Origin: Steroidobacter agaridevorans | GTDB lineage: Bacteria > Pseudomonadota > Gammaproteobacteria > Steroidobacterales > Steroidobacteraceae | Reading direction: 5' to 3' | Assembly: GCF_009932555.1 (NCBI RefSeq) | Contig: NZ_BLJO01000001.1 | Coordinates: 1,107,691 to 1,171,690, forward strand | DNA: 64,000 nucleotides | Shown here: positions 16,501-58,399 of the stretch, in pieces | Numbering within the stretch: the first letter of the stretch is position 1 | How the letters are laid out: each line of letters opens with the position of its first letter | The notes under the pieces: generated by a model | Database searches by the model: none | What the model saw: the letters and a program-made list of their open reading frames with translations, nothing else | What the model was told of the DNA's origin: nothing | Made by a program: the position numbers and the translations under genes

Positions 16501-19500
16501 TCGGGAGACGAGTTCGGGAAGATGACATCCGTCGCCGAAACATTTCCATTCAGGATTTCGGGCAGGCTGACCAGGCAATCGGTGACCAGCGCAGTGAGCG
16601 CCTTCGAATACGCGTCACCGGCATACGCATGTCGTCGTGTCTGCCATTCGTGCCATTTCGCCTTCGCTTCCCTGGCATCCCAACGGACGATGACATCGTC
16701 GCGCAGCTCGATGAACTGCCGCTTGGCCAGCATGCGCAGGCTTTCGTTGACCCATGGAATGTACTTGTCGAGGATCCGGCAGCGCCGATGCAGCTCCGCG
16801 ACGCTCGACGGCACTCGCGCCGGCAGGCTGTGATCCGACGCCTCGACCAGACGATTCAGCTGGTAGAACAGCAGCTGACTGAACCAATCGTCGAGGTCGC
16901 TGCGCTCCTGAGCGCGTATCAGGGTCGCGATGCGCCCGCTGGGAGGGTCGATCTGCAGATCCGTCACTGGCGGCGCGAGCGGCGCGTCCGCGGCCAACGT
17001 CACGATCTCCTCCGAGTTGCAGTTGATCAGCGGCTGCACCTCTTCCGAGACTCGCATGCACAAGACCTGGCGAATCCTGCCCTGCTGCAGCTCGCCGACG
17101 AACCGCTCGAAGCAGGCGAATCCTTCTTCGTCGCTGAGCGAGCCCACGTTCTTCGCGCGCACGTCCTGGTGGACTTCCATGCGTTCCCTGACGAAAGCTC
17201 GCCACGCGCCCCAGTTGATGGTGCCGACCGGAACTTTCGTCGTGCCCTGAATGGATCGCGTGAAGCTGTCGGCTGCGCTGATGCCTGCGGCGTAGGCCGC
17301 AACCGTCATTGCGCCCGAGAAGGAGTAAGCCTGTCCGGAAGAGAAATACACCATGAAGTCCAGCGACTCGTCGCTCAACGCAGCGTGGAACACGCGGCTT
17401 CCCTGCGTCTTGATGCCGACGACGGACTCGAACTGAGCCTCCGAGATCAGATCGATGGAGTTGTCGATGCCGAACACCATGCCCGAGAAGATCGCGCCGT
17501 TCAGTGCCGAATAACGATTCTTGATGGTGGCAACGGCCTGACGCATCGAATCCAGGCTCAGCACGTCCGCCTGCAGATAGCTCAGCTTGCTGCCGAACTC
17601 CGCGAACGCTTGCAGTGCCGAGCGCACTTTCGGCGAGTCGGCATCGCTTCGGCCCAACCAGACCACGGTAGCCCCATACTTCTGGATGAGATTGCGCGTG
17701 ATGATGCGACCGACGATGCCCGTGCCGCCCACAATGAGATAGACGCCCTTCTGTTTGATCGCCGTTGGCGCGGGCTGGCCCCAGTTCAACTTGAAGAACG
17801 AGCCACGATAACGCTTGCCTGCCTGGAGCTTGAACACCTCGCCCCGGTCAGAGGACGGCTCGCGACCGATCACGGTGAGCAACTGCTCGGCATTGCTGGG
17901 ATCGCGCAGATCGTCCGCCGACAGATCGAGGTTTCGCACTCGGAACTGATAGTTGCCTTGGGCCAAGGAATAGCCCAAGCCCGATGCGCCCGCTCCGGCC
18001 CCCGCATTGGCTGCGCCGCTCAGCGAGTGGTTGTCGACCGTGAGGATGTAGGTGTCGACCTTGTCACTGACCTTCTGGCTGTGTTTGAGGAACTTCACCA
18101 GCCGTAACAGCTGGCCTTCCGCATCTTCCTCGACCGAGGAATGCTTGGCCTGCTCGCTCGCGGCCAGGAAGTACAGCGCGTCGACCTTCCGAACGCCTTG
18201 CAACGCCGTCTCGAATGCTCGCGAGTCCCGCACTCCGCAGCGCCACTCGTTCTGTGACAACTGCGCAGTAGTTTCCGCCAACCGAATCAGCACGACGTTC
18301 GCCTGCTGATTGCGCTGGCGAATGACCTCTTCAAATCCGTAGGAACCGTCGCGGCAGACGATAAGGACCGTCTGATGTGCCAGGGTCAAGTTCGGCAGCG
18401 AATCCCGGCACTCTTCCCAGCGATACAGATAGCTGATGCCATCCCACTTCGATTCGTTCGGGGCGACGACGGTGCTGCCCGGCGCCGTCCATCGCACGCC
18501 TCGCATCAGGACGCAGGCATTTCCGGCGTCGTCACAGAGGTCGACATCCAATGCCCGGTCGTCATCCGATGCGTATCGGATCAACGCATACATCCGGTCG
18601 GCGCAGGCCGAAGCGACAGTGAACGACTCGACGGAAGCCGGCAAACGCGAGCCCGCGTCGGCGCCAAGGAACATCGTGCACGCTTGCCATGCGCCTTCGA
18701 GCAAGCATGGATGCAGCACGTAGTCTCGAGCGTCACATTCCGGCGCGATTTCGATTCGCGCCAAGAGGGAGCCGTCGCCACGGAAGACTTCTTTCAGCCC
18801 TTGGAGCGAAGCGGGCTGCAGCTCATCTCGCGTCATCCGGCCCATCGCGGCCGCAAGGTCGAGCTGCTCCGCCTGGACATTCGCAACCAGATCCGCACGG
18901 CCGCGCGCATGAACCACTTCAGTCTGGATCTCGAATTCGATCCCGTCGTCATTGGCCTCGAGGTTGAGGGTGACGTCGGTCGGTTCAGTCACGAACAATG
19001 GCTGGTCCCATTCCATGCCGGTAATGGAGAGCGCCGCCGGCACGCCATGATCTGACGTGGCGTGCACGATCGCCGCGCGAGCCATCTCCACGAGAGACAA
19101 GGCTGGAAACGCCTTCGTGTCGTCGAGGAAGAACTCGTTGCCATTGAAGCTCGATCGATATCGCTGCTGGCTGAGCAACGACGCATTCCTGTGCACCAAC
19201 GGATGGATCCGATCGTCATCGATCTGAGAGTCCGCGACCGCGGCGCTGTCGATCCAGAAGCGATCCTTGGCGAAGGGATAGCCCGGCAACTCGATCCGGC
19301 GCGGCTTCGCCTCGCCGTACAGCTGCTTCCAATCCAGCGTCAGGCCCTTCGACCACCACTCCGCCAGCTTGGCGAGCTTGCGCTCTCGCAGCCACTTGCC
19401 AACCATGGTCGTGCGGACATCGTCGTCCTGGGCGAACAGCAGCATCTCTTCCTTGTTCCGTTGCGCCTGACCGTGGAATGTCCCGGCGATGCCGGAATCG

Positions 19501-22500
19501 TCCGCGACGTACGCTTCCAGCTTGGCGATCAATTCGTCGAGTGAACCGGCCAGGAACACCACGCGATCGGCCATTGAATCGCGGGCCACTTGCAGCGTAT
19601 AGGCCACGTCGGCCAGACGCATCGTTTCGCCCCGCTTGCGCAGAGCCCTCAGCAGATCGTCGGCTTTCTGTCGCAGCTGAGTTTCATTCCTTGCTGACAA
19701 AGGCACAATGAACTTCTCACCCTGTGGCCAGACCGGGGCGTCGAGATCGCCCTGCGAAGACGCCACATGCTCTGCAATCACGAGGTGAGCGTTAGTGCCG
19801 CTGAACCCGAACGAGCTGACAGCCGCGCGACGCTGGCCCCGATCGGCAACATTCCAATCAGCCAGGCTGGCGTTGACGTAGAACGGAGTGCCGGCCAGAT
19901 CGATGTGCTCGTTACATTGTGAGAAGTTCGCAGCAGGCGGCAACTGACGATGCCTCATCGCCAGCAACAGCTTCGCGACACCCGCCACACCAGCGGCGGT
20001 CAGGCAATGGCCAATGTTGCTCTTCACCGAGCCGAGCGCGCAGTAGTCCTGTCGAGCGGTGAATGGCTTGAACGCCGCCTTCAAGCCCGCGACCTCGATC
20101 GGATCGCCGAGCTTCGTGCCGGTGCCGTGCGCCTCGATCAGCTGAATGCCCGCCGGATCGATCTCGAAGCGCTCGTAGATGGACTGCAGCAGACGCGCCT
20201 GGCTGTCCTCGTTCGGCGCGGTGATGCCGTTGGTCTTGCCGTCCTGATTCACGCCCCAGCCTTCGATCACGCCGAGAATGCGGTCACCGTCGCGCTCGGC
20301 ATCGACCAGACGCTTCAGCACCACGACGCCGACGCCCTCGCCAATCACGAAGCCATTGGCGCGCTGATCGAAGGTGAAACAGCGACCGTCGCTCGAGAGC
20401 ATGCCGGCTTGCGAAGTCATGACGTGCATCGACGGACCCGACATCACATAGACGCCGCCGGCCAATGCCAGATCGCTCGTCCCGAAGCTCAAGCTGTCGC
20501 ACGCTTCCGCTATCGCCACCAGCGAGGATGAGCACGCCGTGTCGATGGAAATGCAGGGGCCGCGGAGATTCAAGAAATAGGCGATGCGAGCCGCCAGGAT
20601 CGATGTCGCCGCGCCGGTAAAATCCTGTGCGCCCAGTGGGTTCTTACGAGGTAACTGATGATAATCGCCGGCCGCGCAGCCGACGAAGACGCCACAGCGA
20701 CTGCCTGATAGCGATTGCGAGTCATAACCCGCGTTCTCTATACCGTGCCAGCACGCTTGCAGGAACACGCGCTGCTGCGGATCCATGCATTCCGCTTCGG
20801 TCGGCGAGATGTTGAAGAACAGCGGGTCGAACGCGTCGTAATCTTCCAGCGCACCTAGCCACTTGCTGTAGGTCTTGCCAGCCGCCGCCTCGCCCGCTTG
20901 GTAGTAATCGTCCAGGCGCCAACGCTGGTTCGACACTTCGCTGATGCAATCGCGGCCCGCGGCGATGTTTTCCCAGAACTGGTCGAGATCGTTGGCCTTG
21001 GGGAACTGGCCTGCCATGCCGATCACGGCGATGCGCTGAGCCGCGGACGCATCCCGTGCAATTACGCTTGAACGCAGACGCGCCGGTTCACGATTCAATC
21101 GCGATACGAGCTCGCGGCGTGCGACTTTCGATGGTGCGGCCGTGGTTCGTGCAGGCTGAACTGTCGGCGCTGGCATCGGACCGGAAGGTGGCGCCATCCT
21201 GCCGGCTTCCTGCATCACGAACCGACTGAGCTCCGCCAGCGTCGGATAGCTGTAAACCTTGGTCGCTTCGATGCTCGTGCCATAGCGATCGTTGATCTTG
21301 CGGATCCAGGTCACGCCCGTGATCGAATCCAAGCCAAGGTCGGTAAATTGCACGCCTTCGTCGATGCCATGGGCCTGCATGTGCAGCTCATGCGCGAGCA
21401 GGCTCCTGAGCGCTTCGATCACGTCGCGAAGGTTCGTGCCTTCGTTGGCCGTCGATTGAGTTGCGTCGGCGCGAGTTGTCGTCACGGCCGGTGCATTCGA
21501 GAACTTCGTCTCGATCTGCGCCAGGGTGTCGTCCTGGCCAACGAACGTCTGCTCATGCATCTGCACTTCGCGTCGATAGACATCCTCGCGCACCTGGCGG
21601 AGGGAATGCGTCCACTGACGTTTCAGAGCTTTCAGTTGGTCTCTGGGATGCTTGGCAATGCTTCTGGCTAGTTCGATGGCGGCCGACAAAACGTCCCGCC
21701 GCGGCATGACTGCAGCCTGTAGCCCACGATCCCGCAGCTCATGACCGGCGATCTCGCGTGCCGTGAGCAGCGTTTCGCGTGCGAGATCGTGGCCGATCTT
21801 TCGAGGGAATACTAACGTCGCGCCCGCGCCCGGTGTGAAGCCATAACCCATGTAGGGGCTGTGAAAGCGGCTCTCTTCGCCGAGCACGACCAGATCGGCA
21901 AACATGCCCAAGGACCAGCCTGCGCCGATGGCATGCCCTTGCATGGCCGCGATCACCGGCAGAGAACAGTTCAAGGCAATCTCGTAGATGCGCTCGTCGG
22001 TGAACTGCGCCTTGCCCTGCTGGATCGACAGCAATGTTTCCTTGGTGCCGCCCGCCGCGAAGTACGTGTCATAGCCGGTGAGCACGACCACTTTGCAGGT
22101 CGGCGTGTGCTCGACGTACGCAAAGGCCTGCTTCACGGCACTGAGCAACGATTCGGAGAACAGATTCTTCGTCTGTCGATCGTGCATGGTGATCACAGCG
22201 ACGCCGTCGGCTTCGTTGGCCACGGTCACTGCATCGGATTGAGGAGCCTTCGGCGCGGAGGTCGGAGCCGCCTCCAACGGCAGAATCTCGGGAGCGTGCT
22301 CGGCGACGGACACGCACGACGCTTTCCAGGCTTCGATAGTCTCGCGCGGCCACTCAGTCCAGAACTCGGCCAAGCGCAACGCCTGCGGAATGACTTCCGA
22401 TGCTTCGGCCACGGTCAGCGCACCCATTCGAGCACGCAGGTCGGCTCCTTTGTAGCTGCGGCCCGTCAGGCAAGCTTCCTGACCCAGCGCTGGCCCAAGT

Positions 22501-25500
22501 CGGCTCACGGACCGAGACGCGACTTCGCGAGCCAGCGCTGGATCGGCCCAAGGACCATTTGCGCGGTAGCGTCCCTGTGTTTGATACACACAGGCATCGC
22601 TCCACAATCCCAACAACCATGCAGCGCCCTCGGCGTCGCCTGTGAAAGCCGTGATCACGGGCGCCTTGCAGCCCTGTACCAGTCGGCGCAGCTCCAACGT
22701 GGCGTCCGCATCGACGGTCTCACTCGAAGGCAGGAAGCCCGACTGAGCGCTCGTCAGCACGATGGCGCGGTGGCCGGAGAATTGCTCGATCTGCTCGAAC
22801 AGCGTGGCCAGGTCGGCAATCAGCTGTTTGATACTGACGGCGTTCGACTCGATCTGGACGACAGCAACGTTCTCCGTCGACCCCTCGAGCGAAATGTGTG
22901 CGGCCGGCGAGACGATCTTGGTGCGAGTTCGAGGATCCAGTCCGCCCTGCACTTCCGTCGGACTCGCCACCGTCAGCGCATCGACGAGCGGCACGAGTTC
23001 GCGCGCCAGATGTTCCTTCAGCAAGCGCAGCGACGTTTGGGACTTCTGCGCAAGGTCGGTCGCAAGCTCCATTGCCTTGGCGTCGACTTGTGCAGCCGGC
23101 ACGATCGCGCATGTCCAACCCTTCTTCAGCAGTTGCTCGCCGGTCCAGGGACCCGTTCGGTACAACAGCTCATCCGCCTGCACTTCACCGAAGCGCTCGG
23201 CGAAGAAGCGTCTTTCACTCTCGCTCGGGAAGAGTCCCAGCCGCGGGCTCGTGAACTCGTAACGCCCCTCTTTGCTGCCGACCATCAGGTCACAGACGCT
23301 GGCGAGCAAGAAGCCGCTGCCGCAGGCACCTTCCTGCATGACTGCAATTACGGGGAACGGGAACGATGCGATCTCGCTGAACAGGCGGCGCTCGACCGCT
23401 TGGTTGCAGGTGGCCCTGTCGCCGGGCCAGAAGTCGTCCCTGCCTTTGATCAGCAGCACCTTGAGAGAGGCTTCCCGCCGCGCGACGCGCAAGGCATTGA
23501 GTAGTGGCTCGACGGCGGTTGCCGGCTCAGCACCGGGTGCCGGCGCGATTTCAATGGAGAACACGCCGTTGCTCACATCGAAAAGCTTCACGAACGAGCT
23601 CGTCGCCTGTGCAGAACCGGGCGAAGCCAAGTCGAGAAGAGTTACGGCCGCTCGCGGCGTGGACTCGCTCGCCTGCAGCTCATCGGTGGCTGCTAATGTG
23701 ACTTTTCTGGCCTTGGCCGCAACGGGAGCATCGACGGACGCAGCCGGCTGAACTCCAAGTGGAATCTCCCTGGGCTCGGAGGGCGCTGTCGGAGCGGGCA
23801 CTACGAAGGCGGCATTCTCCGCGACTTCGTACTGTAATCCGCGAACCTGCAGGCATACATCGCCCTGCTCGCTGCACACGTCGATGTCGACGCCGGTTGA
23901 CGCCGCCGCGCGAATCCATATCAGCGCAGTGTCGGGACACTCGACCAGCAGGCGCGCACAACCCATGGACAGCAAAGAGATGCTTTCCCCCGCGAAGTCT
24001 GTCACGCACCCGGCGACGATCTTCAGCAGTTCCGGGCGCAAGGCGTAGCGGCCCTTCTCGTCGGCACTGGATGCATCGAGACGAACAGTCGCAAGCAGCT
24101 GCCCCTCTCCTTCATAGCAACTGACCACGCCGGTTCGCAGCGGCTGCGACCGCGCGCGCATCGCCGACATAAGCTGCACCGTATCGACACGCTCTCGTGT
24201 CTGCGCGCGGGTGTAGGCCGCAAGACTCTGACAATGCACGACGCCATCGCCACTCACGATCTCGACATCGATGCTGTCATTGTCACGCGCCTGCAGGACG
24301 ACGCGAACGGCCTGCTCTACAGTCAGAACGATCGGCCGACCCCACGCGATGTCGCGCAGTTCGAGAATGTCCGACGGCAATCGGCCCGACGATGCAAGCC
24401 CAATTGCAACGCGCGTCATCTCCAGCGCCATCCACTCAGGCAGCAGCGATCGACCGGTTGCCTCATCGCGTTCCAGGAACGACTCCGTCCCAGTGAAGCT
24501 GGATGTATAGCTCTGCTGCTCGAGTGTCGAAGTGTTCTTGTGAACCAAAGGATGCAATAGCGCCGTCGTTCGACTCGGCACGGTCGCAACAGGCGTCGGC
24601 AGTGCAAGCCAGTAGCGCTCTTTGGCAAACGGATAACCTGGCAAGCTCATGAGCCGCGGCGTCGCGCCGTCCTCGTAGAACTTCTGCCAGCTCACCTCCA
24701 CGCCGTTGACCCAGGACTCGACGAGCTTCGACAGCTTGGCGTCAGCAATCCATTGATCGACGACCTTTCGGAAATCGGCATCGGCAGTGAGCACCGACAA
24801 GGGCGTGTTGTGGCGTCCGATCTGGCCACGATACAGGCCGTCGACTGCAACCTGCCCTGCGAGAAACTGCTGCAGCTGGTCGGTCAGCTGTTCGACCGAG
24901 CCCGTCACCAGGCCCAAGCGCTCATCCAGCGCTTCGCGTCCCACCTGCAGCGTATATGCCAGAGACGTCAGATCGAGCGCATCCGCTTGCGTGCCAATGA
25001 AAGTCAGCAGATCTCGCGCCTTCTGCTCGAGCTGCGCCGTCGTCTTTGCCGACAAAGGAACGACGACCAGCTCGGCGCCGCGGACAGCAGCGACCGATCT
25101 GGACCGATACTCTTCGACGATCACGTGCGCATTCGAGCCGCCTGCTCCGAATGACGAGATACCCGCGATACGCGGCACGCGCTGGCCGTCGACTTCCGGG
25201 CACTCCCAATCGCGCAGCGACTGATTCACCACGAACGGTGTGCTGTTGAAATCGATGTGCGGATTGAGCTTGCTGGAGTGAAGCGAGGGCGCGATGAGCT
25301 GATGCTTCATCTGCAGCAGCACTTTGGTCAGGCCCGCGATACCGGCGGCCGACTCGCAGTGACCGATATTCGATTTCGCCGAGCCGATCAGACAAGTGCC
25401 CATCGCCACTTCGGCCGCTTGCGAATCGCCGCGCAGGGCATTGCTCAGCGCCGTGATTTCGATCGGATCGCCGAGCTTCGTACCGGTGCCGTGTGCCTCG

Positions 25501-28208
25501 ATATAACTGATGTGTCTTGGATCCAGATCGGCATCTGCCAATGCCTGGCGGATCACGTCGCTCTGCGCCTGCGGATTCGGCACGGTATAACCATGGGTCT
25601 TGCCACCATGATTCAGCGCGGAACCACGGATGACGCCATAGATGACGTTGCCATCCCGCTCGGCTTCCGAAAGCCGCTTCAGGACGACGACGCCGACGCC
25701 TTCACCCGGAATGTAACCATCGCCGCCTTCGCCAAAGCTCTGGCAGTGACCGTCGCTGGAAATGAACTGGCCGGCGCTCAGCAACAGATACTTGTTCGGA
25801 TGGATGCTGACGTTCACACCCCCCGCAATCGCCAGTTGCGTCCGACCCTGCCGCAAGTCTTGGCACGCAAGGTGAATGGCCGTCAGCGACGAGGAGCACA
25901 TGGTGTCGAGTGTCATGCTCGGACCATGCAGGTTCAAAAAGTACGAGACGCGATTGGCAATGCTCGCAAAGCTGCTGGAGACCGCCATGCGTTGACCTTG
26001 CACGCTGGCCTCGGCGCCAAACAGCTGATATTCGCTATGCATCGCGCCGGCATACACGCCCACTCGATCGTTTGGCAGGCTGCCGCGCGTGTAACCCGCA
26101 TCCTCGATCGCGAGCCACGCATGCTGCAGGAACAGGCGCTCCTGCGGGTCGATGCTCTTCGCCTCCTTCGGAGAAATATTGAAGAACAGCGGATCGAACT
26201 CGTCGACGCCCGCGATGAACCCGCCCCACTTGCTGAAGTGGCGTCCGGTCTGCGTGCGGTCTTCGCTGAAGTAATCCCGCCAATCCCAACGATCCCTGGG
26301 AACCTCGACGATGCAGTCCTTGCCGTCGCGGAGATTGCGCCAATAGGTGTCCAGATCCGGCGCCTCCGGATAGCGACCGCTCAACCCGACGATCGCAATG
26401 GGTTCGGCGCTGTCGGTCGAGCTGAAGTCGCTACGGCGCCGCCGGGCAGCGACCTTCTGCGTCGGTGCGGGGGTGACTGGCGCCACCTGTCGCTGGCTCG
26501 GTGCTCGCGGCGCGGCCTTCCCCACCGCCGCTGGAGAGAACAACACATCCAGCGCTGGCGCGTGGGCCCGAACGAAGTACTCGGCGAGCGCCTGCACATT
26601 CTGATATTCGAACAGCAGCGTCTTCGACAGCGGCCCGAAGGTTCGTTCCAGGCTGTTGATGAGACTCACGGCCAAGATGGAATCGATGCCATACCGCTCC
26701 AGACCCGCGCGCGGATCGATGTTATGAGCAGGCAGCTTCAACACCGTCGAGAACTGCTTGCGCAGATAATCCCGAGTCTTTTCCAGCAGGTCGCCGGCCT
26801 CCTTTGTCGCCGGTTCGCTTGGCGCAGGTTCAATCGTCGCGGGCTGAGTCTGCAGGGTCCGGCTGGCGAGCACGCGATGCAGTTGCGCCAACTCGCCTTC
26901 CATCACGAGCATCTGATCGTGATTCGACTGCAAGCATCGATACAGCGCCTGAATGCCGGTGGCGGTCTGCATGGGTTGGATGCCGCTCGAGCTGCGCAAC
27001 GATTCCAGCGTCCGCTGGTCGAGCGTCATGCCGCCTTCCGACCAGAACGGCCAGTTGATGGACAACGTTCGGCCCGATCGCTCGCCGGCCGCAACGGCTC
27101 GATTTCGGTCAGCGGCGAATCGATCCATGAACCCGTTCGCCGCCGCGTAATCGGCTTGCCCGGCGTTGCCCATGACCGCGGCGATCGACGAGAACAGCAC
27201 CAGGAAATCCAGCTCAACATTCCGGCTCGCCGCATCCAGGTTGAATGTGCCGGTGACCTTGGACGCCAGCACTTCGCGAAACTCCGCGGAGGTCTTCTTC
27301 AGGATGAAGTTGTCCGCAATCATGCCTGCGCTGTGAATGATGCCGTTGAGCTGCCCGTGCTCTTCAACGATCGCGGAGATCAGCTGCTCGACCTGCGTCA
27401 GGTCGCTCACATCGACGCAACGATATTCCACACGGCCCGGTGTTGCCGCGTCGGGTGCGGAACGACCCGCGAGGATGACTTTGGCGCTGGTCGTTTGCTG
27501 AAGGATCTCGCGAGTAACGATCTGGCCCAGGCCTCCCCAGCCGCCCGTGATCAAGTAGACGCCGTGGTCCTTGAATGCGATCGGCGCGTCGCCCTCGCTC
27601 GACGGCAGCGGACTCCAGGCTTGAACGTGCCGGAGACCGTTCCGATATCTGACGACCGCATCCGCTTCTCGCTGAAGCTTCTGCGCCAGGTCAGCGGTCG
27701 TGATGCCGGCCGGCACCAGAATGCATTGACCGACCACGCTGGGATTTTCCAGCATGGCAGTCTTGAGCAGCGCGAACAGTCCCATGAACACGCTTTGCCC
27801 GCCAGCGTCCGGCACCACGAGGCGCACGAGCACTTTCCTTTTCGGCTTGCCGCGCAGGATGCTCTGTATCGCCTCGAAGCAAGCGACGGCATAGTCACTG
27901 TAGCGCTCCGCGATAGTGGCGCCCTCGGACCGCAATGACTGGCCACGACCATTAGTCACAAGCGTTGCCAAGGCCGTGGCATCCACACCGGGCAGCTCAC
28001 ATAGCAGCACGAGCTGTTCGGAGTCTGTCGACTCGTTCGAGATCTCATCCGCGCTCGCTTGCCACTGCGGGCTCGCAAGCACGACGCCGACGCTCTGTTG
28101 TTGCCGCTTGAGCGTCGCGATGATCTCCAGGGCCGCTGTCTTGGACAGCTTGCCCGTGGACAGATCCTGATAAATCTGTTGCAACTGTTGTTTCATCCGC
28201 GTTTCCAT
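13554..28208 (-). CDS. PKS-4: trans-AT polyketide synthase, dd-KR-ACP / KS-psiDH-ECH-psiECH-ECH-ACPbeta / KS-psiDH-KR-MT-ACP / KS-dd
   Basis: 4884 aa. Order: docking helix 5-36; KR 62-450 (S341, Y354, intact); ACP S510; KS1 602-1035 (C771, H906); degenerate DH 1217-1465 (Glu1249 for the catalytic His, Lys1396 for the Asp); three crotonase units at about 1540-1745, 1775-1965 and 1998-2235; beta-branch ACP S2295/W2301; KS2 2391-2815 (C2559, H2694); degenerate DH 3001-3245; KR 3258-3730 (Y3639, Ile at the usual Asn); C-methyltransferase 3772-4125 (EIGAGTGG); ACP S4206; KS3 4294-4705 (C4451 in NTGCSSS, H4586, H4626); C-terminal docking tail 4857-4884. It begins with KR because the DH of that module is at the end of PKS-3, only 8 bp upstream. 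An in-frame ATG at 28196 is an alternative start; neither has a strong ribosome site. Confidence 0.95.
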   Translation of the reverse strand: METRMKQQLQQIYQDLSTGKLSKTAALEIIATLKRQQQSVGVVLASPQWQASADEISNESTDSEQLVLLCELPGVDATALATLVTNGRGQSLRSEGATIAERYSDYAVACFEAIQSILRGKPKRKVLVRLVVPDAGGQSVFMGLFALLKTAMLENPSVVGQCILVPAGITTADLAQKLQREADAVVRYRNGLRHVQAWSPLPSSEGDAPIAFKDHGVYLITGGWGGLGQIVTREILQQTTSAKVILAGRSAPDAATPGRVEYRCVDVSDLTQVEQLISAIVEEHGQLNGIIHSAGMIADNFILKKTSAEFREVLASKVTGTFNLDAASRNVELDFLVLFSSIAAVMGNAGQADYAAANGFMDRFAADRNRAVAAGERSGRTLSINWPFWSEGGMTLDQRTLESLRSSSGIQPMQTATGIQALYRCLQSNHDQMLVMEGELAQLHRVLASRTLQTQPATIEPAPSEPATKEAGDLLEKTRDYLRKQFSTVLKLPAHNIDPRAGLERYGIDSILAVSLINSLERTFGPLSKTLLFEYQNVQALAEYFVRAHAPALDVLFSPAAVGKAAPRAPSQRQVAPVTPAPTQKVAARRRRSDFSSTDSAEPIAIVGLSGRYPEAPDLDTYWRNLRDGKDCIVEVPRDRWDWRDYFSEDRTQTGRHFSKWGGFIAGVDEFDPLFFNISPKEAKSIDPQERLFLQHAWLAIEDAGYTRGSLPNDRVGVYAGAMHSEYQLFGAEASVQGQRMAVSSSFASIANRVSYFLNLHGPSMTLDTMCSSSLTAIHLACQDLRQGRTQLAIAGGVNVSIHPNKYLLLSAGQFISSDGHCQSFGEGGDGYIPGEGVGVVVLKRLSEAERDGNVIYGVIRGSALNHGGKTHGYTVPNPQAQSDVIRQALADADLDPRHISYIEAHGTGTKLGDPIEITALSNALRGDSQAAEVAMGTCLIGSAKSNIGHCESAAGIAGLTKVLLQMKHQLIAPSLHSSKLNPHIDFNSTPFVVNQSLRDWECPEVDGQRVPRIAGISSFGAGGSNAHVIVEEYRSRSVAAVRGAELVVVPLSAKTTAQLEQKARDLLTFIGTQADALDLTSLAYTLQVGREALDERLGLVTGSVEQLTDQLQQFLAGQVAVDGLYRGQIGRHNTPLSVLTADADFRKVVDQWIADAKLSKLVESWVNGVEVSWQKFYEDGATPRLMSLPGYPFAKERYWLALPTPVATVPSRTTALLHPLVHKNTSTLEQQSYTSSFTGTESFLERDEATGRSLLPEWMALEMTRVAIGLASSGRLPSDILELRDIAWGRPIVLTVEQAVRVVLQARDNDSIDVEIVSGDGVVHCQSLAAYTRAQTRERVDTVQLMSAMRARSQPLRTGVVSCYEGEGQLLATVRLDASSADEKGRYALRPELLKIVAGCVTDFAGESISLLSMGCARLLVECPDTALIWIRAAASTGVDIDVCSEQGDVCLQVRGLQYEVAENAAFVVPAPTAPSEPREIPLGVQPAASVDAPVAAKARKVTLAATDELQASESTPRAAVTLLDLASPGSAQATSSFVKLFDVSNGVFSIEIAPAPGAEPATAVEPLLNALRVARREASLKVLLIKGRDDFWPGDRATCNQAVERRLFSEIASFPFPVIAVMQEGACGSGFLLASVCDLMVGSKEGRYEFTSPRLGLFPSESERRFFAERFGEVQADELLYRTGPWTGEQLLKKGWTCAIVPAAQVDAKAMELATDLAQKSQTSLRLLKEHLARELVPLVDALTVASPTEVQGGLDPRTRTKIVSPAAHISLEGSTENVAVVQIESNAVSIKQLIADLATLFEQIEQFSGHRAIVLTSAQSGFLPSSETVDADATLELRRLVQGCKAPVITAFTGDAEGAAWLLGLWSDACVYQTQGRYRANGPWADPALAREVASRSVSRLGPALGQEACLTGRSYKGADLRARMGALTVAEASEVIPQALRLAEFWTEWPRETIEAWKASCVSVAEHAPEILPLEAAPTSAPKAPQSDAVTVANEADGVAVITMHDRQTKNLFSESLLSAVKQAFAYVEHTPTCKVVVLTGYDTYFAAGGTKETLLSIQQGKAQFTDERIYEIALNCSLPVIAAMQGHAIGAGWSLGMFADLVVLGEESRFHSPYMGYGFTPGAGATLVFPRKIGHDLARETLLTAREIAGHELRDRGLQAAVMPRRDVLSAAIELARSIAKHPRDQLKALKRQWTHSLRQVREDVYRREVQMHEQTFVGQDDTLAQIETKFSNAPAVTTTRADATQSTANEGTNLRDVIEALRSLLAHELHMQAHGIDEGVQFTDLGLDSITGVTWIRKINDRYGTSIEATKVYSYPTLAELSRFVMQEAGRMAPPSGPMPAPTVQPARTTAAPSKVARRELVSRLNREPARLRSSVIARDASAAQRIAVIGMAGQFPKANDLDQFWENIAAGRDCISEVSNQRWRLDDYYQAGEAAAGKTYSKWLGALEDYDAFDPLFFNISPTEAECMDPQQRVFLQACWHGIENAGYDSQSLSGSRCGVFVGCAAGDYHQLPRKNPLGAQDFTGAATSILAARIAYFLNLRGPCISIDTACSSSLVAIAEACDSLSFGTSDLALAGGVYVMSGPSMHVMTSQAGMLSSDGRCFTFDQRANGFVIGEGVGVVVLKRLVDAERDGDRILGVIEGWGVNQDGKTNGITAPNEDSQARLLQSIYERFEIDPAGIQLIEAHGTGTKLGDPIEVAGLKAAFKPFTARQDYCALGSVKSNIGHCLTAAGVAGVAKLLLAMRHRQLPPAANFSQCNEHIDLAGTPFYVNASLADWNVADRGQRRAAVSSFGFSGTNAHLVIAEHVASSQGDLDAPVWPQGEKFIVPLSARNETQLRQKADDLLRALRKRGETMRLADVAYTLQVARDSMADRVVFLAGSLDELIAKLEAYVADDSGIAGTFHGQAQRNKEEMLLFAQDDDVRTTMVGKWLRERKLAKLAEWWSKGLTLDWKQLYGEAKPRRIELPGYPFAKDRFWIDSAAVADSQIDDDRIHPLVHRNASLLSQQRYRSSFNGNEFFLDDTKAFPALSLVEMARAAIVHATSDHGVPAALSITGMEWDQPLFVTEPTDVTLNLEANDDGIEFEIQTEVVHARGRADLVANVQAEQLDLAAAMGRMTRDELQPASLQGLKEVFRGDGSLLARIEIAPECDARDYVLHPCLLEGAWQACTMFLGADAGSRLPASVESFTVASACADRMYALIRYASDDDRALDVDLCDDAGNACVLMRGVRWTAPGSTVVAPNESKWDGISYLYRWEECRDSLPNLTLAHQTVLIVCRDGSYGFEEVIRQRNQQANVVLIRLAETTAQLSQNEWRCGVRDSRAFETALQGVRKVDALYFLAASEQAKHSSVEEDAEGQLLRLVKFLKHSQKVSDKVDTYILTVDNHSLSGAANAGAGAGASGLGYSLAQGNYQFRVRNLDLSADDLRDPSNAEQLLTVIGREPSSDRGEVFKLQAGKRYRGSFFKLNWGQPAPTAIKQKGVYLIVGGTGIVGRIITRNLIQKYGATVVWLGRSDADSPKVRSALQAFAEFGSKLSYLQADVLSLDSMRQAVATIKNRYSALNGAIFSGMVFGIDNSIDLISEAQFESVVGIKTQGSRVFHAALSDESLDFMVYFSSGQAYSFSGAMTVAAYAAGISAADSFTRSIQGTTKVPVGTINWGAWRAFVRERMEVHQDVRAKNVGSLSDEEGFACFERFVGELQQGRIRQVLCMRVSEEVQPLINCNSEEIVTLAADAPLAPPVTDLQIDPPSGRIATLIRAQERSDLDDWFSQLLFYQLNRLVEASDHSLPARVPSSVAELHRRCRILDKYIPWVNESLRMLAKRQFIELRDDVIVRWDAREAKAKWHEWQTRRHAYAGDAYSKALTALVTDCLVSLPEILNGNVSATDVIFPNSSPEKVAALYKENAIADTYNEVVGDAVLACLQQRLQADPSTRLRILEIGAGTGGTSAMVFAKLKPFQHAVEEYCYTDLSKAFFLHAEENYVPGNPYIVCRRLDIEQPIEPQGIDVGTYDVVIATNVLHATRDIRQTLRNAKAALRNNGFLLLNEISDKSLSPHLTVALLDGWWLFQDPELRIPGCPGLYPQSWKRVLEEEGFCSVQFPVEQAHVLGNQVIVARSNGLIRQRVESVVPPQVVAKAPAPIPRRASNPLSTSTVAVERAPAVSSSAHVRDAILGCLSKTLKVPAASIGAEIAFSDYGIDSILGVNFVKQLNDTLRISLNTAIIFEYPSLERLSKHVLAAYGDQIETQLRSPPNSAPTATPAPVPTQAITVKTKRQSKRVESRAPAVSADIAVVGMSGRFPKAENVREFWNNLVSGVDGVDELSARYLDQSNYSPKKQKGKTRCKWGGVLAERDCFDPLFFNISPNEAESMNPHQRLVMQESWNAIEDAGYNPRALAGTQTGVFVGSEPTGYRGHTFTGLSEAIIASRLSYVLNFNGPAFVVNTGCSSSGVAIHLGCESLRNRETDVVLAGGVHACMDQTTQIRLDEIEMLSPSGRCFTFDAAGDGTIISEGVAMVMLKRLDDAIAAGDHIYGVIKGSGINQDGASNGITAPNGAAQEQLIRSVYEKFKIDPERISYVEAHGTGTKLGDPVETNALVRAFKHYTGKQNYCAVGSAKSHVGHTAAAAGVTGLIKVLLSMQHRQLPKLLNFKTLNPLIEFEHSPFYVVTERTPWQPAGEVRTAAINSFGHSGTNVHMVVQEYSPAARQEANHANRTVIVPLSAKTPEQLQQKGRDLLEFIESADQTIELASLAWTLQAGREAMVERVGFVVRSLDQLSDKLRAWLAGESDVRGTDNLGKQLESWLQGHAVDWALLWGDAKPRRMSLPGYPFAKERYWAGMSDPAATTSSNLPSQSIEDIIDRIDDDSIDAHAGVQLLKLMV
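13557..15329 (-). other. PKS-4 C-terminal KS with docking tail
   Basis: KS3 has NTGCSSS around Cys4451 and GHSGTNVH at its C-terminal end, both unlike the other KS domains here. The linker ends in the usual YPFAKERYW. The tail at 4857-4884 (IEDIIDRIDDDS then a hydrophobic helix) is an acidic docking-type sequence. The cognate DH-KR-ACP is at the start of PKS-5. Confidence 0.75.
15465..21038 (-). other. PKS-4 module: KS-psiDH-KR-MT-ACP
   Basis: KS2 has the GFSGTNAH end motif. The DH lacks the His motif (sequence around 3029-3036 reads DDTKAFPA) and has Glu3171 for Asp. The KR has GGTGIVG and Tyr3639, but a two-residue longer loop between the Ser pair and Tyr, and Ile3643 for Asn. MT motif I is EIGAGTGG. 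Expected product is an alpha-methyl beta-hydroxy (or beta-keto, if the KR is impaired) thioester. Confidence 0.75.
21204..26405 (-). other. PKS-4 beta-branch module: KS-psiDH-ECH-psiECH-ECH-ACP(Trp)
   Basis: The KS is complete (C771). The DH fold has lost both catalytic residues. The crotonase triplet spans bases 23591-21504. The third unit has the GYDTYF.AGGT and MQGHAIGAGW oxyanion loops and the YGFTPGAGAT stretch of PksI-like (ECH2, decarboxylating) enzymes. The middle unit has lost these glycines. The first is intermediate. The ACP carries the Ser+6 Trp of beta-branching carriers. The arrangement is paralogous to the PKS-3 module at 36313-31169. Confidence 0.85.
26559..28196 (-). other. 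PKS-4 docking-KR-ACP (second half of split module begun in PKS-3)
   Basis: The N-terminal helix with the QDLSTGKLSKTAALEI pattern matches the class of docking sequences found at DH//KR breaks. It pairs logically with the acidic tail of PKS-3. The KR has GGWGGLG, S341, Y354 and N358, so the completed KS-DH//KR-ACP module should give an alpha,beta-unsaturated thioester. Confidence 0.75.
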
Positions 28209-28216
28209 TCGCTCGC

Positions 28217-31200
28217 TCAGCCCAGCTCCGCCGCGTCGTCCGCGGACACTTCACCGCTCATGATTCGTTCGAGCAGCCGGCCATAGAACGCGCTGTCGAA
28301 ACTCACCGAGCTCTCCGCCACTCGCGCGGAGAAGCCTTCCATCTGCACGCAAACATTGCCGTGCCGATCGCAGATGTCGATGTCGAGCCGGATCACTTTG
28401 TCGTCACGGCGGCTGCCCGGCGAACAACGCAGCCAGGCGAACATCTCGTCCGTGCAGGCAGCGAACACTCGCAGCGATGCAAGGGCAAAAGGCACCAGCG
28501 GCTCGCCCGGGGGCCGGTCGAAATCGACGATCAATCCCGCCGATGCCTGCAAGGCCGAGTCCATCAAGGACGGATGCAACTGAAAGTCCGTGCTGCCTTG
28601 GCGCACACTGTCCGGCAGCCGCAACTGGGCCAGCAGCTGGTCTTTGCCGAGATACAGCGAGGTGATGCCGCGATGAGCTGGGCCGTACTGCAGCCCCATC
28701 CCATCGAACATTTCATAGAGCGCCGCCGACTCCACCGCGCGCTGGTCCATCTGCGCTTTGAGCTGCGCGACATCCATTCGCGGCATCGACGACGCATGCC
28801 GGTAGGCCGCGAAGCCCTGGCAGTGAACGCTCTTACCGGTCGCATCCTCACTGGAGATTTCGTAGTTGACGTTGTCATCCGCGTCGTTGCGCGACAGAGC
28901 AATACTCACTTCCCTGGGCTCGGTCACGACCACCGGCTTCAACCAGACGAACTCGCTGATCTCCAACACGGGTGATTTCGGTTGCGCTGGCGCCGCGTGC
29001 TGAAGGGCCGCACGAACCATTTCCAGATACGCGACGCCGGGCAGTACCTTCTGCACACCGCGGCCGCCGAGCTTGACGCGGTGATCTCGCAGGAAGAATT
29101 CCGTGCCGCTGAACTTGGACCGATATTTCTGTCCGGTGAAATCCGAAGCGTTCGTGTGCAACAAGGGATGCAGGCTCGCTGGCGTCGCAACGTTCTGCGT
29201 CGCCTGCGACGACTCGATCCAGTAGCGCTGTTTCGCAAATGGATACAGTGGCAGCCGGATACGCTTCGGCTTCGAATCGCCATGGAGCTTGCGCCAGTCG
29301 ATATCCAGGCCCTTGCTCCACAGACCCAACAGCTTGCCGAGCTGCCGCTGCGCGATGCATCGATCGACGATCGCATCCTTCATGTCGGCATCCTGGGCAA
29401 AGAGGCTCAAGGTTTCCTTGGCGTCCTGCATCTGGCCGCGGTACATGCCGTCGCTCTCACGCGCGCCGCTCAGGAACGCATCGAGTTTTTCGACCAGCTG
29501 CATTGTGGAGCTCACGAGCAAGCCCAGTCGCTCTTCCATCGCTTCTCTGCCCACTTGCAGCGTATAAGCCAGTTCCCCCAGATCGACGGGATCTTCGGCG
29601 TTACGAATGAAGTCCAGCAGCTCCCGAGCCTTTTGCTCGAGCTGCTCCGGCGTACGCGCCGACAGCGGAACGATCACGCCATTGCCGTCGGGGCGCGCTT
29701 GCCGTGCATCCTCTCGAGTCACGGGTTCCGCAACGACGATATGAGCATTCGTGCCGCTGAAACCGAATGCACTGATGGCCGCACGTCGTCGCTCGGTCTC
29801 GGCCACGTCCCAGGACTGCAATCGATCGTTGACATAGAACGGACTGTCGGCGAGACCGATGTGCTCGTTCAGCCGGTCGAAATTGACGGTCGGCGGCAGT
29901 TGCCGATGCTGTAGGGCGAGCACCAGCTTGATGAAGCCCGCGATACCGGCGGCCGCGAGACAGTGGCCGACGTTGCTCTTGACCGAGCCCAGCGCGCAGT
30001 AGCTCTTCTTCTGTGTGTACTTGCCGAAGGAGCCTTTGAGCCCCTCGACCTCGATGGGATCGCCCAGCTTCGTGCCGGTGCCATGAGCTTCGATCAGCTG
30101 AATGCCCGCGGGATCGATTTGATACTTGTCGTAGACATCCTGTTGCAGCCGTGTCTGCGATTCGGGATTGGGCGCGGTGATGCCATTCGTCTTGCCATCC
30201 TGATTGACGCCCCAGCCCTGGATCACTCCGTAGATCGTGTCGCCGTCGCGCTCCGCATCGGCAAGTCGCTTCAGCATCACGACACCGACCGCTTCGCCCG
30301 GTACAAAGCCGTTGGCGCGCTGATCGAAAGTAAAGCAGCGTCCGTCTGGCGAGAGCATTCCCGCCTGCGCGGTCTTGATGTGCATCTCGGGCGTCGACAT
30401 CAGTGCGACGCCGCCGGCCAGCGCTACATCGCTGTTGCCCATCGCCAGGCTATCGCACGCCTGTGCCAACGCCACCAGCGACGATGAGCACGCGGTGTCG
30501 ACAGACACGCACGGGCCGCGCAGATTCAGAAGATAAGAGATGCGTGCGGCGAGAATCGAGTTGGCACCGCCAGTGAATCCCTGCGCAGAAAAACGCAGGT
30601 CCGGGGACAACTGGCGATAGTCGCTCCCCGTGCACCCGACAAAGACGCCGCACTTGCTGCCCGACAATGACTTCGCGTCATAGCCGGCGTCTTCGATGCT
30701 GTGCCAGCACGACTGCAGGAACAGCCGCTGTTCCGGATCCATGCACTCCGCTTCGATGGGCGAAATGTTGAAGAACAAGGGATCGAACAGATCGTATTCG
30801 TCGAGGGCTCCCATCCACTGGCAGTTGGTCTTGCCAGCGACGACGCTCTCGCTGTAGTAGGCATCCATGTCCCAACGCTTCGCCGGAACGCGTGTAATGC
30901 AGTTCTTGCCTTCGGCGATGTTGTGCCAGAACTCTTGCAGATTCCGGGCCTGCGGGAACTGGCCCGCCATGCCGACCACCGCGATGGGCTGCGACAACGA
31001 AGCCTCGGCCGTCCGCGTCGCTAGTTTCGCTGGCGTTCGGTTGCGCCAGGAAACGAGCTTTCGACTGGTGAGCCGGGCCGCGCTGGTATAGGGAGCCTTT
31101 GATTTCTGCGGTGGCGCGACCGGAGCGATGATCGGAGCGCTCACCGCCGGTGGCGGCGGCAGATGTTTGTCCGTCTCTTCTTTGATGTGCCTGGCAAGCT

Positions 31201-34200
31201 GCGTCAGGGTCGGATAGCTGTACACCTTGGTCGCCAGCATCGACATCTTGTAATTCTCATTGATCTTGCGCACCCAGGTCACGGCGGCAATCGAATCCAT
31301 GCCCAGGTCGATGAACTGCACGTCCTCGTCGACGTCGCTCTCCTGCATGTGCAGCTCTTGCGCCAGCAGCTGCTTGAGCTTCGCCGTGATCGCAGGCAAC
31401 GGATTGGCCTCAGTGCGTGCGACCGTGACGCTCGGGGGCGCAACCGTCACACTAGACTCGCCTTCAGCGGCGCCGATCTGCAGGAAGTTGCGTTGGATCT
31501 GCTCCATCGCCACCGACTGACCCACGAACGTCTGGTCGTGCATCGCCAGTTCCCGCCGATAGGTCTCGTCGACGACAGCGAGCACGGATCGAGTCAGTTT
31601 CTGTTTGAACCGCACCAGCCGGCTGCGTGGCATCTGCGCGATCTGCTTCGCCAATGCCATTGCGGTCGGCAGCACCTCGCCCCGAGACGACACGGGGAGT
31701 AACAACCCGCGGTCCCGCAACTGTGTGCCGGTATAGGGCCGTGCGGTGAGCAAGCTTTCATTCGCCAGGTCGACACCGAGCTGCCGCGGCAAGATCAGCG
31801 TCGCGCCGGCACCCGGCGTGAATCCGTAGTCCATGTATGGGCTCACGTAACGGCTTTGCTCGCTCATGACGACGAAGTCGGCAAACATACCGAGCGTCCA
31901 GCCGCCGCCGAGGCCGTGTCCTTGCATGGCCGCGATCACCGGCACTTCGCATTCCATGGCGAGCTGGTAGATCCTGGCGTCGGTGAATTTTTCCTTGCCT
32001 TCTTGAATCGCCAGCAGACTTTCCTGCGTGCCACCGCATGCAAAGTAGCTGTCGTAGCCGGTCAGGATCACGGCTTTGTAGGCCGAGCTCGTCTTGATGT
32101 GCGCGAACACCTCCTCGACGCCTTCGACGAAGGCCTTGGAGAACATGTTCTTCGCCTGGCGATCCTCCATCCTGATGACCAGGATGCCTTCGGGATGCGC
32201 GACGGCAGATATCACTTCCGATTCGAGCGCGACCGGAGTCGGTGTGACAGGTAGCGAAGCCGGGGCGTTGGTCCCGAGCTCGATCTCTGCCCGACCGGAT
32301 GACACGCTCGACAATCGGTCCCGAAGCATCGCAGCCATGTGCCGCTTCCACGAGCCGATGGCATCGATACGCAGCGAAGACCACTCGCCAGCCAGCCGCA
32401 GCGCCGCCGGCAACACCTGATCGTGCTCGCAGACACTCAGCGCACCGACACGTCGCTGCAATTCGGCGCCCGTGTATTCCGCGCCCGTCAGCAACAACTC
32501 CTTGCCGAAATAGTCGCCGAGGCGCACGGGAAAGATCGCCGCGGCTTCATCGGCCATTGCAAACTCGCCGCCCGCGTCGACCAGCGAATAGCGACCCTCG
32601 TTGTTGTAGAAACATGCATCGAAGAACTGACTGATCAGCCACGCAAAGCCGCGGGCGTTCCGGCTCAACGCACCGATCACCGGCACCTTGGCTTCGACTA
32701 TCAGCCGCCACAGATTTCTGGCTGCCTCCGCCGACGCGACGGTCGCCGGGAAGAATTCCGGGCAGTCGCTCGCCAGGACGATGACCTTGTGGCAAGACGC
32801 CGCACTGACCTTCGCAAACACATCCCGCAAGTCACGAAACAAGTCATCGCACGACTGCTGAGAGTCCCGAATACGGATGAGAAGCACGTTGCCCGCATGA
32901 CTCTCCAGCTGCAGATCGCTCGAAGGCGAAGTGATTCGCGCAGTGAAACCCGCCTCATTCAGCGGGCGCTCCGCGGTCGACCGTTCCCCTTGATCGACGG
33001 CAAGGTGCCTGACCTGCTCGAGCAAGCGGCGTGACAAGTGCTGCTTCAGCAGGTGCAATGCCTGTTGGGACTTCGAAGACAGCGTCTGCGCCAATTCCAG
33101 CGCGTAGCTTTCGACTTCCGTCTGCGGGACGATCGGACAAGTCCAGCTTTTGTCACGCAACTCCTTGCCGGTTGCAATGAGCGACACATACAGAAGGTCG
33201 TGCGCGCGGGCCTCGCCAAAACGGTCGTTGAAGAGCGCCGCGTGCTGGGCCGTCGGATAGAAGTCGTCGCTCAGCTGGGTATAGCCATAGCGTGCTTCTT
33301 CGCCGCAGATCATGAAGTCGCCAAGCGCTCCCACCAGGAGCCCCGCTCCGGTCGCGTCGCCGCGCATGGCTGCGATGACCGGGCAAGGAAAGGCAACAAT
33401 CGCGTTGAACAGCCCTTGCCCAACGGCCTCGTTGTACTGCGCGCGGCTGCCACGCAGGAAACAACGCTCTGTGCCGTTGATGATCAGAGCTTTCAGATCG
33501 GCCGCTTGCCTGGCCGTGGCCAGCGCCTGAATCAATTTCTCGATCACGTCGGCCGAGAGCGTGTTGCCGTCGGAAGTCGCGATGCGAATGGAATAAACGC
33601 CGCTGCCGTGCTCGAGCAAACTGACAGGCGGGGATCCTGCAACTTCAGCCGGCGCGGCCAATGAGATGCCCGTGGCTTTCTTGCGCTCGACCGGAGCGGC
33701 TTCCGGCGAGTGCAGCTCGCCCAGCACGACGGATTGGGTAACAGTCGGGAGCATTGCGATTTCCTTCGGCTTCGGCGCACTGGCCGTCACAGCAGTAGGG
33801 ACCGGTAAAGAAGTCAGTGGCGGCTCGGTCGGATAGCTGATTCCGCGCATCTGAACGCAGACACGTCCTTGCGTATCGCAGAGATCGACATCGACGCGAG
33901 CACTGTCCGAGAAGCGAATCCAGGCCACCATTTCCGTTTCGCACTTACGAAGCATGCGCAGGGATTGCAGCTCGAGCGGCAAGCGCGGTGAGGTCGCCGT
34001 TGACTTCGTGCCGTCGATCAGGCCACGAACGGCCGACAGGGCATCGTCGATCAAGCTCGGATGCAGGCCGAATTCGCCCACTTCCGACGTTAGGCGGAGT
34101 TGCACGAGGCGTTGTCTGTCGATCGCCTGGTTTCGGAGGCGCTCGATATCGAGCTGGATCGGTCCCGAGTCTTGCTCGAATACAGCGCTTCCCTGGCAAT

Positions 34201-44423: not shown

Positions 44424-45650
44424 TTATTTGTCGCGAGCCGCATCGCCGTCAGTTACATACTTCGTGTACAGCTCGACGAAGCGCCGATATCTCGGCGTAT
44501 CCCACTTGAAGCCGTCGAGCTGCTCATCCAGCTTGATCGCGTGCTGCATTTCCTGGGGCAGGAATCGATATTTCCTGCGCAGCTCCTCGGACAGCTGCGG
44601 CTGATCCAGATTCATGCCGACGCCGTACGGCGTGAGATTGCCATAGTGATGGGTCGAGTGCTGATTGATGTCCTGGAACTCTTTGGGGATGCGCGGGTAC
44701 ACCCCTGGAATGAACTGGTGCCCGTCGATGTCGGACTTCACATCGATGCTGTAGAAGACGAACAGCAGCAGCGGGTTGTAGAAGATCCCGGGGCCGCCCA
44801 GCGTGTAGCGCGCAAACCCTTCCAGAAACCCGTTCCCCGACACGCCGATCAGGCCGCTCGGAATGGCATCGTGATGCGGCCCGTGCAGATAGACGAACTC
44901 GAGCTCCGAGTTGTGCCCCAGCCAGTGGTCGCGATAGAACCAGCGGTTGAGTACTTTCATGAAACTGGCGTGGATCACGAAGTTCGCGAGCAGCGCGATC
45001 GGCAGGAACACCACGGAGTACTGGACGTGCGTGATGACGATGTACCACGGCGCGATCAGGATCACATGCGCCAGCAGACCGGTGAAATAGGCGTGCACGA
45101 TTTCCAGGACGACGCTGGGCTGGCGCTGCAAGGCGACTTTCCAATGGGTCTGCAGCAGAAAGCCGCGTACATGCTCTTTGAGTCGCAGGTGTGAGATCAG
45201 GCTGGCGGTTCTATAGACCGTCAGCGCGATGAAGTGCGTGTAGAACAGGCCAATCGCGATCTTGCGCATCAACTCCGTGTGGTGCGGCCACTCCGGCGTC
45301 AGATAGATCAACACGTTCTCCAACAGGAGCAGCGCCGCGGCAAGGAAGTACGGAATCGTCATGTTCCGCAGCTTGTAGATGAGCATGTAGATGACATCTT
45401 GCGGCCGCTTCACGATGACTGGAGTTCGCAGCTTCCAGCCATGCCGGAGCAGGAACGTGCCGACCAGGCAGACGCACAGCGCCAGGCCGACGATCGACAT
45501 GACGCTCGGCAGCCCGTACACCACGGTGACCAGGCCACCGCACAACGCCAACATCAGGACATAGTCGATGAAGTCATCGCGGCGATACGCCATCCTCGGG
45601 CTGTGCACCCCGTAGAGCTGATGAAACTTCGACGCATCGGCGCTGTTCAT
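44424..45650 (-). CDS. Membrane di-iron hydroxylase/desaturase (fatty-acid hydroxylase superfamily)
   Basis: 408 aa from the ATG at 45650. Several hydrophobic segments (about 29-48, 50-68, 100-117, 130-150, 190-206, 210-230, 286-300) make it an integral membrane protein. Three histidine clusters fit the di-iron site of the fatty-acid hydroxylase/sterol desaturase family: HxxxH at 242/246, HxxHH at 256/259/260, and HxxHH at 331/334/335. The family uses O2 to hydroxylate or desaturate unactivated C-H bonds of lipids. Here the likely substrate is the polyketide or an acyl lipid (inference). The start overlaps the PKS-2 stop as ATGA, so translation is probably coupled. An ATG two codons upstream is badly spaced from the GGAAGGG ribosome site and is rejected. 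The C-terminal 70 residues are soluble and charged. The closest characterised subfamily cannot be told by eye. Confidence 0.8.
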   Translation of the reverse strand: MNSADASKFHQLYGVHSPRMAYRRDDFIDYVLMLALCGGLVTVVYGLPSVMSIVGLALCVCLVGTFLLRHGWKLRTPVIVKRPQDVIYMLIYKLRNMTIPYFLAAALLLLENVLIYLTPEWPHHTELMRKIAIGLFYTHFIALTVYRTASLISHLRLKEHVRGFLLQTHWKVALQRQPSVVLEIVHAYFTGLLAHVILIAPWYIVITHVQYSVVFLPIALLANFVIHASFMKVLNRWFYRDHWLGHNSELEFVYLHGPHHDAIPSGLIGVSGNGFLEGFARYTLGGPGIFYNPLLLFVFYSIDVKSDIDGHQFIPGVYPRIPKEFQDINQHSTHHYGNLTPYGVGMNLDQPQLSEELRRKYRFLPQEMQHAIKLDEQLDGFKWDTPRYRRFVELYTKYVTDGDAARDK

Positions 45651-58390: not shown

Positions 58391-58399
58391 GGTCAACGG

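Follow-up and report, generated by a model that had tools for sequence, protein, structure and literature searches.

What is the role of three crotonase units placed in tandem in each of two modules of the same polyketide synthase (PKS) cluster? The question is raised by a stretch of 64,000 nucleotides from Steroidobacter agaridevorans (NZ_BLJO01000001.1, positions 1,107,691 to 1,171,690; below, the window), which lies on contig C1 of an 8.0 Mb genome and encodes a trans-AT PKS cluster on its minus strand. Each of the two modules, A and B, consists of a ketosynthase (KS), a catalytically dead dehydratase (DH), three crotonase units (the triplet) and an acyl carrier protein (ACP) with a Trp flag. 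This is the composition proposed in an initial annotation, and it is borne out by Pfam ECH_1 matches, catalytic residues and ACP flags. We consider it rather probable that the triplet is an in-cis modular ECH2 (mECH) making a beta-branch, probably an exo-methylene group, with two pseudoenzyme units as a scaffold, probably in the form of a pseudo-trimer. It is a conserved variant of the mECH module, not described in the literature searched; its domain content, the loss of catalytic residues, the relationship to ECH2, the wide conservation and the purifying selection were all observed directly.

The three units differ strongly in their similarity to known families. In triplet A, unit 1 (32984-33622) scores 92.8 bits with Pfam ECH_1 and 125.7 bits with the NCBIfam ECH2 model PRK07110, unit 2 (32315-32902) 32.1 and 65.4 bits, and unit 3 (31463-32212) 169.1 and 290.7 bits. 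In triplet B, the corresponding scores are 79.8 and 101.3 bits for unit 1 (22929-23591), 39.7 and 67.4 bits for unit 2 (22308-22874), and 192.1 and 292.7 bits for unit 3 (21459-22229), all six units being encoded on the minus strand. Given the curated cut-offs (27 bits for ECH_1, 215 bits for PRK07110), PRK07110 is passed by unit 3 alone in both triplets. The crotonase fold of the middle region, which had been set as a test, is confirmed by ECH_1 scores that are weak but above the cut-off, and the unit starts 33622 and 23591 were recovered, although by local profiles seeded from these same units. Unit 1 is thus degenerate, unit 2 strongly degenerate, and unit 3 is predicted to be an intact ECH2 decarboxylase. 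As had been noticed earlier, the latter resembles PksI of bacillaene synthesis. It contains the motifs GGT, GHxxGxGW and YGFTPGAGAT and the His helix with the catalytic His; in a phmmer comparison with solved structures, unit 3 of triplet A matches PksI (4q1g, E 1.8e-68) and CurF (2q35), and Foldseek, which is silent on inter-unit geometry, recovers the PksI fold for unit 3 with an identity of about 45%.

Catalytic residues were counted in an alignment (A4) of 66 triplets, two from the window and 64 fetched, mapped onto unit 3. In PksI, His230 is catalytic and the oxyanion hole is formed by Gly66 and Gly108 (PMC7501309; here and below, published accounts are cited for the excerpts of them that were available). 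The equivalent of His230 is present in unit 3 of all 66 triplets, in unit 1 of three and in unit 2 of none. Three loop glycines (columns 526, 568 and 570, numbered by the alignment reference and not matched individually to Gly66 and Gly108) are retained in 66, 66 and 66 rows of unit 3 and in 60, 61 and 61 rows of unit 1, versus 3, 39 and 25 rows of unit 2; the full set of three glycines and His occurs in 66/66, 2/66 and 0/66 rows of units 3, 1 and 2, respectively. The middle units of the window were claimed to have lost the oxyanion glycines, and two of the three are indeed gone, but the G568 equivalent is retained in both copies. Similarly, the middle unit is non-catalytic as proposed, but it is not the only one: unit 1 of the window has a shortened loop and lacks the catalytic His.

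All units belong to the ECH2 family. PRK07110 is the best NCBIfam model for the six window units, for two units of the locus L095, and for the first units of five two-unit relatives (doublets), some of them weak (L014, 28.4 bits). The many-row profile of unit 1 gives 134.6-138.6 bits to four free ECH2s versus 33.7 and 55.8 bits to two ECH1s, the scoring set for the unit 1 and unit 3 profiles including two wrong-strand crotonase rows (L002, L006). In a tree of 116 rows, for which 27 of the 59 loci described below contributed a single triplet each in addition to the window, L095 and L099, two ECH1 rows sit apart, and rows cluster by unit position, not by organism (nine labels need 9 changes versus a shuffled mean of 66.9). 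By sequence, both unit 1 and unit 2 are paralogs of ECH2 that have degenerated, unit 1 being placed by family profiles and the tree rather than by the ECH1 catalytic positions (PksH Asp68 and Glu137). The initial framing in terms of fused ECH1 and ECH2 was therefore abandoned: for the window it is rejected by the PRK07110 versus PRK07112 assignments, the unit 1 profile scores and the tree, and the cluster keeps separate trans-acting ECH1 and ECH2 genes.

The DHs that precede the triplets, described as dead in the initial annotation, match the DH profile but have lost the catalytic His: the His column is a gap in module A (33836-34507, minus strand), where the Asp column is retained, and Asp in module B (23835-24554, minus strand), where the Asp column is Lys. 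This His is found in four of 56 DHs preceding unit 1 (54 fetched, two in the window), as compared with 29 of 55 DHs preceding a ketoreductase (KR). The beta-branching ACPs, also on the minus strand, lie at 31181-31381 in module A (Trp flag GMDSIAAVTW) and 21210-21413 in module B (GLDSITGVTW). Of 133 ACPs belonging to the runs that follow unit 3, 100 have the Trp, versus none of 70 ACPs after KR.

The candidate notion that the triplet is unique to this cluster was rejected. When 84,980 species genomes were scanned once with the triplet as a query, 433 stretches matched, of which 353 encode relatives, and the best 80 of these 353 were resolved into 67 loci. The architecture search suggested by the initial annotation thus found the triplet in one open reading frame (ORF) at 59 of the 67 best-scoring loci (65 instances, 64 of them distinct, L070 being a second fetch of one stretch); this share is no frequency and is biased upward, because the ranking favours triplets. 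The 59 loci belong to seven phyla: Pseudomonadota (25), Bacteroidota (24), Acidobacteriota (6), and Myxococcota, Verrucomicrobiota, Planctomycetota and Fibrobacterota with one locus each. Upstream of the 65 instances we observed a DH in 49, a KS directly in eight, and an ORF or contig end in eight; downstream, an ACP in 63 and an end in two. Within the order the distribution is patchy, with two of 296 sampled genomes at E<=1e-100, the window's own and G010; G011 carries the triplet too, though it is outside that listing, and both G010 and G011 are placed in the genus of the window. The second triplet of G011 (L039:4319-6577) has an insertion of about 38 residues within unit 2 compared with its ortholog. 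At four loci (L049, L081, L082, L085) one PKS ORF contains two triplet modules. Triplets were also found in Aquimarina Aq78 and A. muelleri (L053, L073), for which a cuniculene cluster has been reported (PMC9323603); these triplets may or may not lie in it.

The remaining eight loci are three doublets (L103, L105, L107), two split triplets (L095, L099) and three cut or partial copies (L101, L102, L104). Unit 2 was not detected at five loci (L103, L105, L107, L013, L014), and in all five doublets the first unit best matches the unit 1 profile and the second one matches unit 3. Whether doublets arose by loss of unit 2 or are older than it, the tree favours neither, because its deep branches are weak (the midpoint split has 60/99, the group of unit 2 rows 85/55). 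The doublet L107 from Methylovulum has the order GNAT-ACP-KS-KR-MT-ACP-KS-E-E-ACP with an ECH2-type first unit, and presumably resembles PedI of pederin synthesis.

In the split triplets from two gammaproteobacterial metagenome-assembled genomes (L095:2160-4451 and L099:2429-4715), unit 1 is the last domain of one PKS ORF, which closes with a stop codon, and the next ORF begins with units 2 and 3. The ATG of this second ORF lies 123 bases (L095) or 73 bases (L099) past the stop, in both loci behind a purine-rich GAGGGA-like stretch, as read by eye. The frames of the two ORFs differ in L099 and are the same in L095, so a frameshift error is no explanation for the L095 split. Since L095 and L099 are close in the tree, their sequences point to what is probably a single split event. 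If the split triplets function like the others, unit 1 must contact units 2 and 3 across proteins. These loci offer a natural system in which to study beta-branching and PKS docking. The middle unit of the split triplets is less degenerate (151.7 bits with PRK07110 in L095).

Purifying selection acts on units 1 and 2, although it constrains them less than unit 3. In eight presumed-ortholog pairs (two each from Steroidobacteraceae, Fulvivirga, Massilia and Aquimarina), dN/dS ranges from 0.09 to 0.38 for unit 1, from 0.13 to 0.43 for unit 2, from 0.05 to 0.25 for unit 3 and from 0.10 to 1.68 for linkers, with some dS values near saturation (up to 2.63). The values for units 1 and 2 are above those of unit 3 in 8/8 pairs, yet well under 1 in 8/8.

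An AlphaFold2 model of the triplet (717 residues, alignment A4) has a mean pLDDT of 90.2 and a pTM of 0.92, which supports a confident placement of the three units relative to each other in a fixed packing. Known ECH1 and ECH2 enzymes are trimeric, homotrimers being described for PksH, PksI, VirD and BonH/BonI (PMC7501309, PMC10006238, PMC12560621), and an intramolecular three-unit assembly is compatible with both the model and these enzymes. Thus, of the earlier idea that a crotonase trimer has been folded into one polypeptide, the fused triplet and its conserved non-catalytic units stand, whereas the three-unit assembly itself is compatible with the modelling. That the triplet is probably a pseudo-trimer is our leading structural hypothesis, drawn from the model and from analogy.

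From these data we infer the chemistry, the exo-methylene outcome and the geometry of the pseudo-trimer. The KS of the module would make a beta-keto chain, and the trans-acting hydroxymethylglutaryl synthase (HMGS) and ECH1 would build and then dehydrate an HMG-type branch on the ACP with the Trp flag. Unit 3 would decarboxylate this branch in cis, probably to an exo-methylene, ahead of the free-standing ECH2. In published systems, the mECH steers the branch towards an exo-methylene, presumably in competition with a trans ECH2 (PMC7618002, PMC12560621). A third Trp-flagged ACP (8324-8530, minus strand, GLDSIVGVEW) in the ORF 1712-13471, with no ECH found in cis, would be served by the free ECH2, giving an endo-methyl. 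On the simplest reading of the sequences and by analogy, both triplet modules would be expected to yield an exo-methylene, and the third flagged ACP to carry a branch processed in trans. Units 1 and 2 would be ECH2 copies without catalysis kept as structural partners, probably supplying the neighbours of unit 3 as identical subunits do in homotrimeric ECH2, and one chain would thus carry its own pseudo-trimer inside a dimeric PKS.

Several observations weigh against this scheme. The Trp flag is absent from 16 of 79 ACPs immediately after unit 3. A doublet (L107), modelled from a 32-row alignment with 29 triplet rows, has a pLDDT of 87.7 and a pTM of 0.89; the latter is close to that of the triplet, so the modelling proposed in the initial annotation gives a high score but does not single out a trimer. 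Co-expressed PksH and PksI gave no heterotrimers (PMC7501309). An endo-methyl was predicted for one lasonolide module with an inactive ECH plus ECH2 (PMC9600693), and therefore the exo outcome is not certain. Two-unit and single in-cis ECH2 modules occur, so the chemistry does not require three units. Finally, the putative ECH1 domains of OnnB, NspA, CusA and PedI are described as retaining ECH1 motifs (PMC6855096).

The last point bears on the possibility that unit 1 is an in-cis ECH1 dehydratase and the triplet performs both dehydration and decarboxylation. Besides the motifs reported in these four proteins, an OnnB domain has been treated as an in-cis ECH1 (PMC10006238), and unit 1 retains the three loop glycines in most rows of the alignment. 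However, its best model is PRK07110, whereas the ECH1 of the cluster belongs to PRK07112 and is encoded by a separate gene, and the unit 1 profile scores free ECH2s far above ECH1s; we regard this explanation as highly improbable. About equally slim is the chance that units 1 and 2 are relics of a tandem duplication that drift free of any function. Unit 2 has diverged far, or is undetected at five loci, and dN/dS of both units exceeds that of unit 3, but its values well below 1 in all pairs make such a scenario unlikely, and the triplet persists in seven phyla with near-invariant columns (one residue in >=90% of rows) at 28 of 210 positions of unit 1 and 9 of 194 of unit 2.

A more serious competitor, though still an unlikely one, views units 1 and 2 as adaptor surfaces for binding either the ACP or the trans cassette, or for fending off the free ECH2, with no trimer needed. 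It agrees with units that are conserved yet catalytically dead, with the modules in which unit 2 was not detected, and with the already published idea of competition between cis and trans ECH2 (PMC12560621). On the other hand, the pTM of the triplet predicts a fixed packing of units, and known relatives with the crotonase fold form trimers (PMC7501309, PMC10006238). We prefer the mECH with a pseudoenzyme scaffold, and only tentatively advance its stronger version. In this version a covalent pseudo-trimer, in which a single active site is joined by two subunits that are pseudoenzymes, would have arisen once, allowing an enzyme of threefold symmetry to fit into a twofold PKS, and would have spread among the phyla; where it is split (L095, L099), the assembly would serve also as a joint docking one PKS protein to the next.

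Various aspects of the triplet modules have parallels in characterized systems. The mECHs of kalimantacin and of the leinamycin family are likewise ECH2s of beta-branching modules acting with a trans HMGS cassette, and in-cis/in-trans ECH2 pairs are known from phormidolide, leptolyngbyalide and oocydin, with a competing trans ECH2 in some (PMC12560621, PMC7618002); unlike in these mECH systems, here two degenerate ECH2 units precede the mECH. Another related arrangement is ECHa plus ECHb in LasH and LasO of lasonolide synthesis, where a truncated ECH without oxyanion-hole sites stands just before ECH2, such inactive ECHa and ECH2 pairs being described as commonly accompanying exo-methylene (PMC9600693). 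Two units are reported there, in contrast to two inactive units before ECH2 in both window modules; the Las proteins were not among the five doublets that we examined. The starter PKSs of onnamide and pederin (OnnB, PedI) share a GNAT start and an ECH-bearing beta-branch module, and the first of two ECH domains of OnnB was called ECH1-like (PMC6855096). In contrast to that account, the first units of the doublets examined here, which did not include OnnB, NspA, CusA and PedI, are of the ECH2 type, and the first ECH units of pederin-like PKSs, where annotated as ECH1, could be inactive copies of ECH2. The discrete enzyme PksI forms a homotrimer with an active site in each monomer (PMC7501309), unlike the one active and two dead units of a single chain here. 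In Art21 ECHQ-TE of aurantinin synthesis, an ECH2-derived unit without the catalytic His is still important for the PKS, but it is a separate didomain protein, with no tandem in a module according to the excerpt available (PMC11425284). Among the open-access matches listed, as far as their excerpts go, the two-unit form is published and no description of the three-unit form was found; the "tandem ECH" of PMC9582728 denotes an ECH plus an enoylreductase in cis-AT PKSs. Thus an inactive ECH before ECH2, once an annotation curiosity, becomes a conserved three-unit block with a testable structural reason.

Domain strings of the cluster were built from Pfam and local profiles. Triplet module A is in the ORF 28217-43384 (GNAT-ACP-KS-DH-KR-MT-ACP-KS-DH-E1-E2-E3-ACP-KS-DH) and module B in the ORF 13554-28208 (KR-ACP-KS-DH-E1-E2-E3-ACP-KS-DH-KR-MT-ACP-KS), the DH before E1 being dead in both; the ORF 1712-13471 reads DH-KR-ACP-KS-ACP-KS-KR-ACP-KS-DH, all three on the minus strand. 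The genes directly beyond the window (L009) encode HMGS (10712-11974), ECH1 (9930-10724, PRK07112 at 402.1 bits), ECH2 (best NCBIfam model PRK07110, 375.3 bits), a stand-alone KS (7673-8920), AT and a NusG-like protein. A candidate discrete donor ACP at L009:8907-9434 scores 20.7 bits with PP-binding versus the cut-off of 20.8.

No Pfam or NCBIfam match was found for a 410-aa protein encoded between two PKS genes (44424-45656). By a local profile, a GNAT-type loading region with an ACP opens the products of both 45647-58396 and 28217-43384; Pfam at E 0.001 detects GNAT only in 28217-43384 of the two. Two GNAT-type starts could reflect two starter units or two chains. In addition, a candidate enzyme for reductive release is encoded at 62188-63963, where a stand-alone ACP is joined to a thioester-reductase-like domain (NAD_binding_4).

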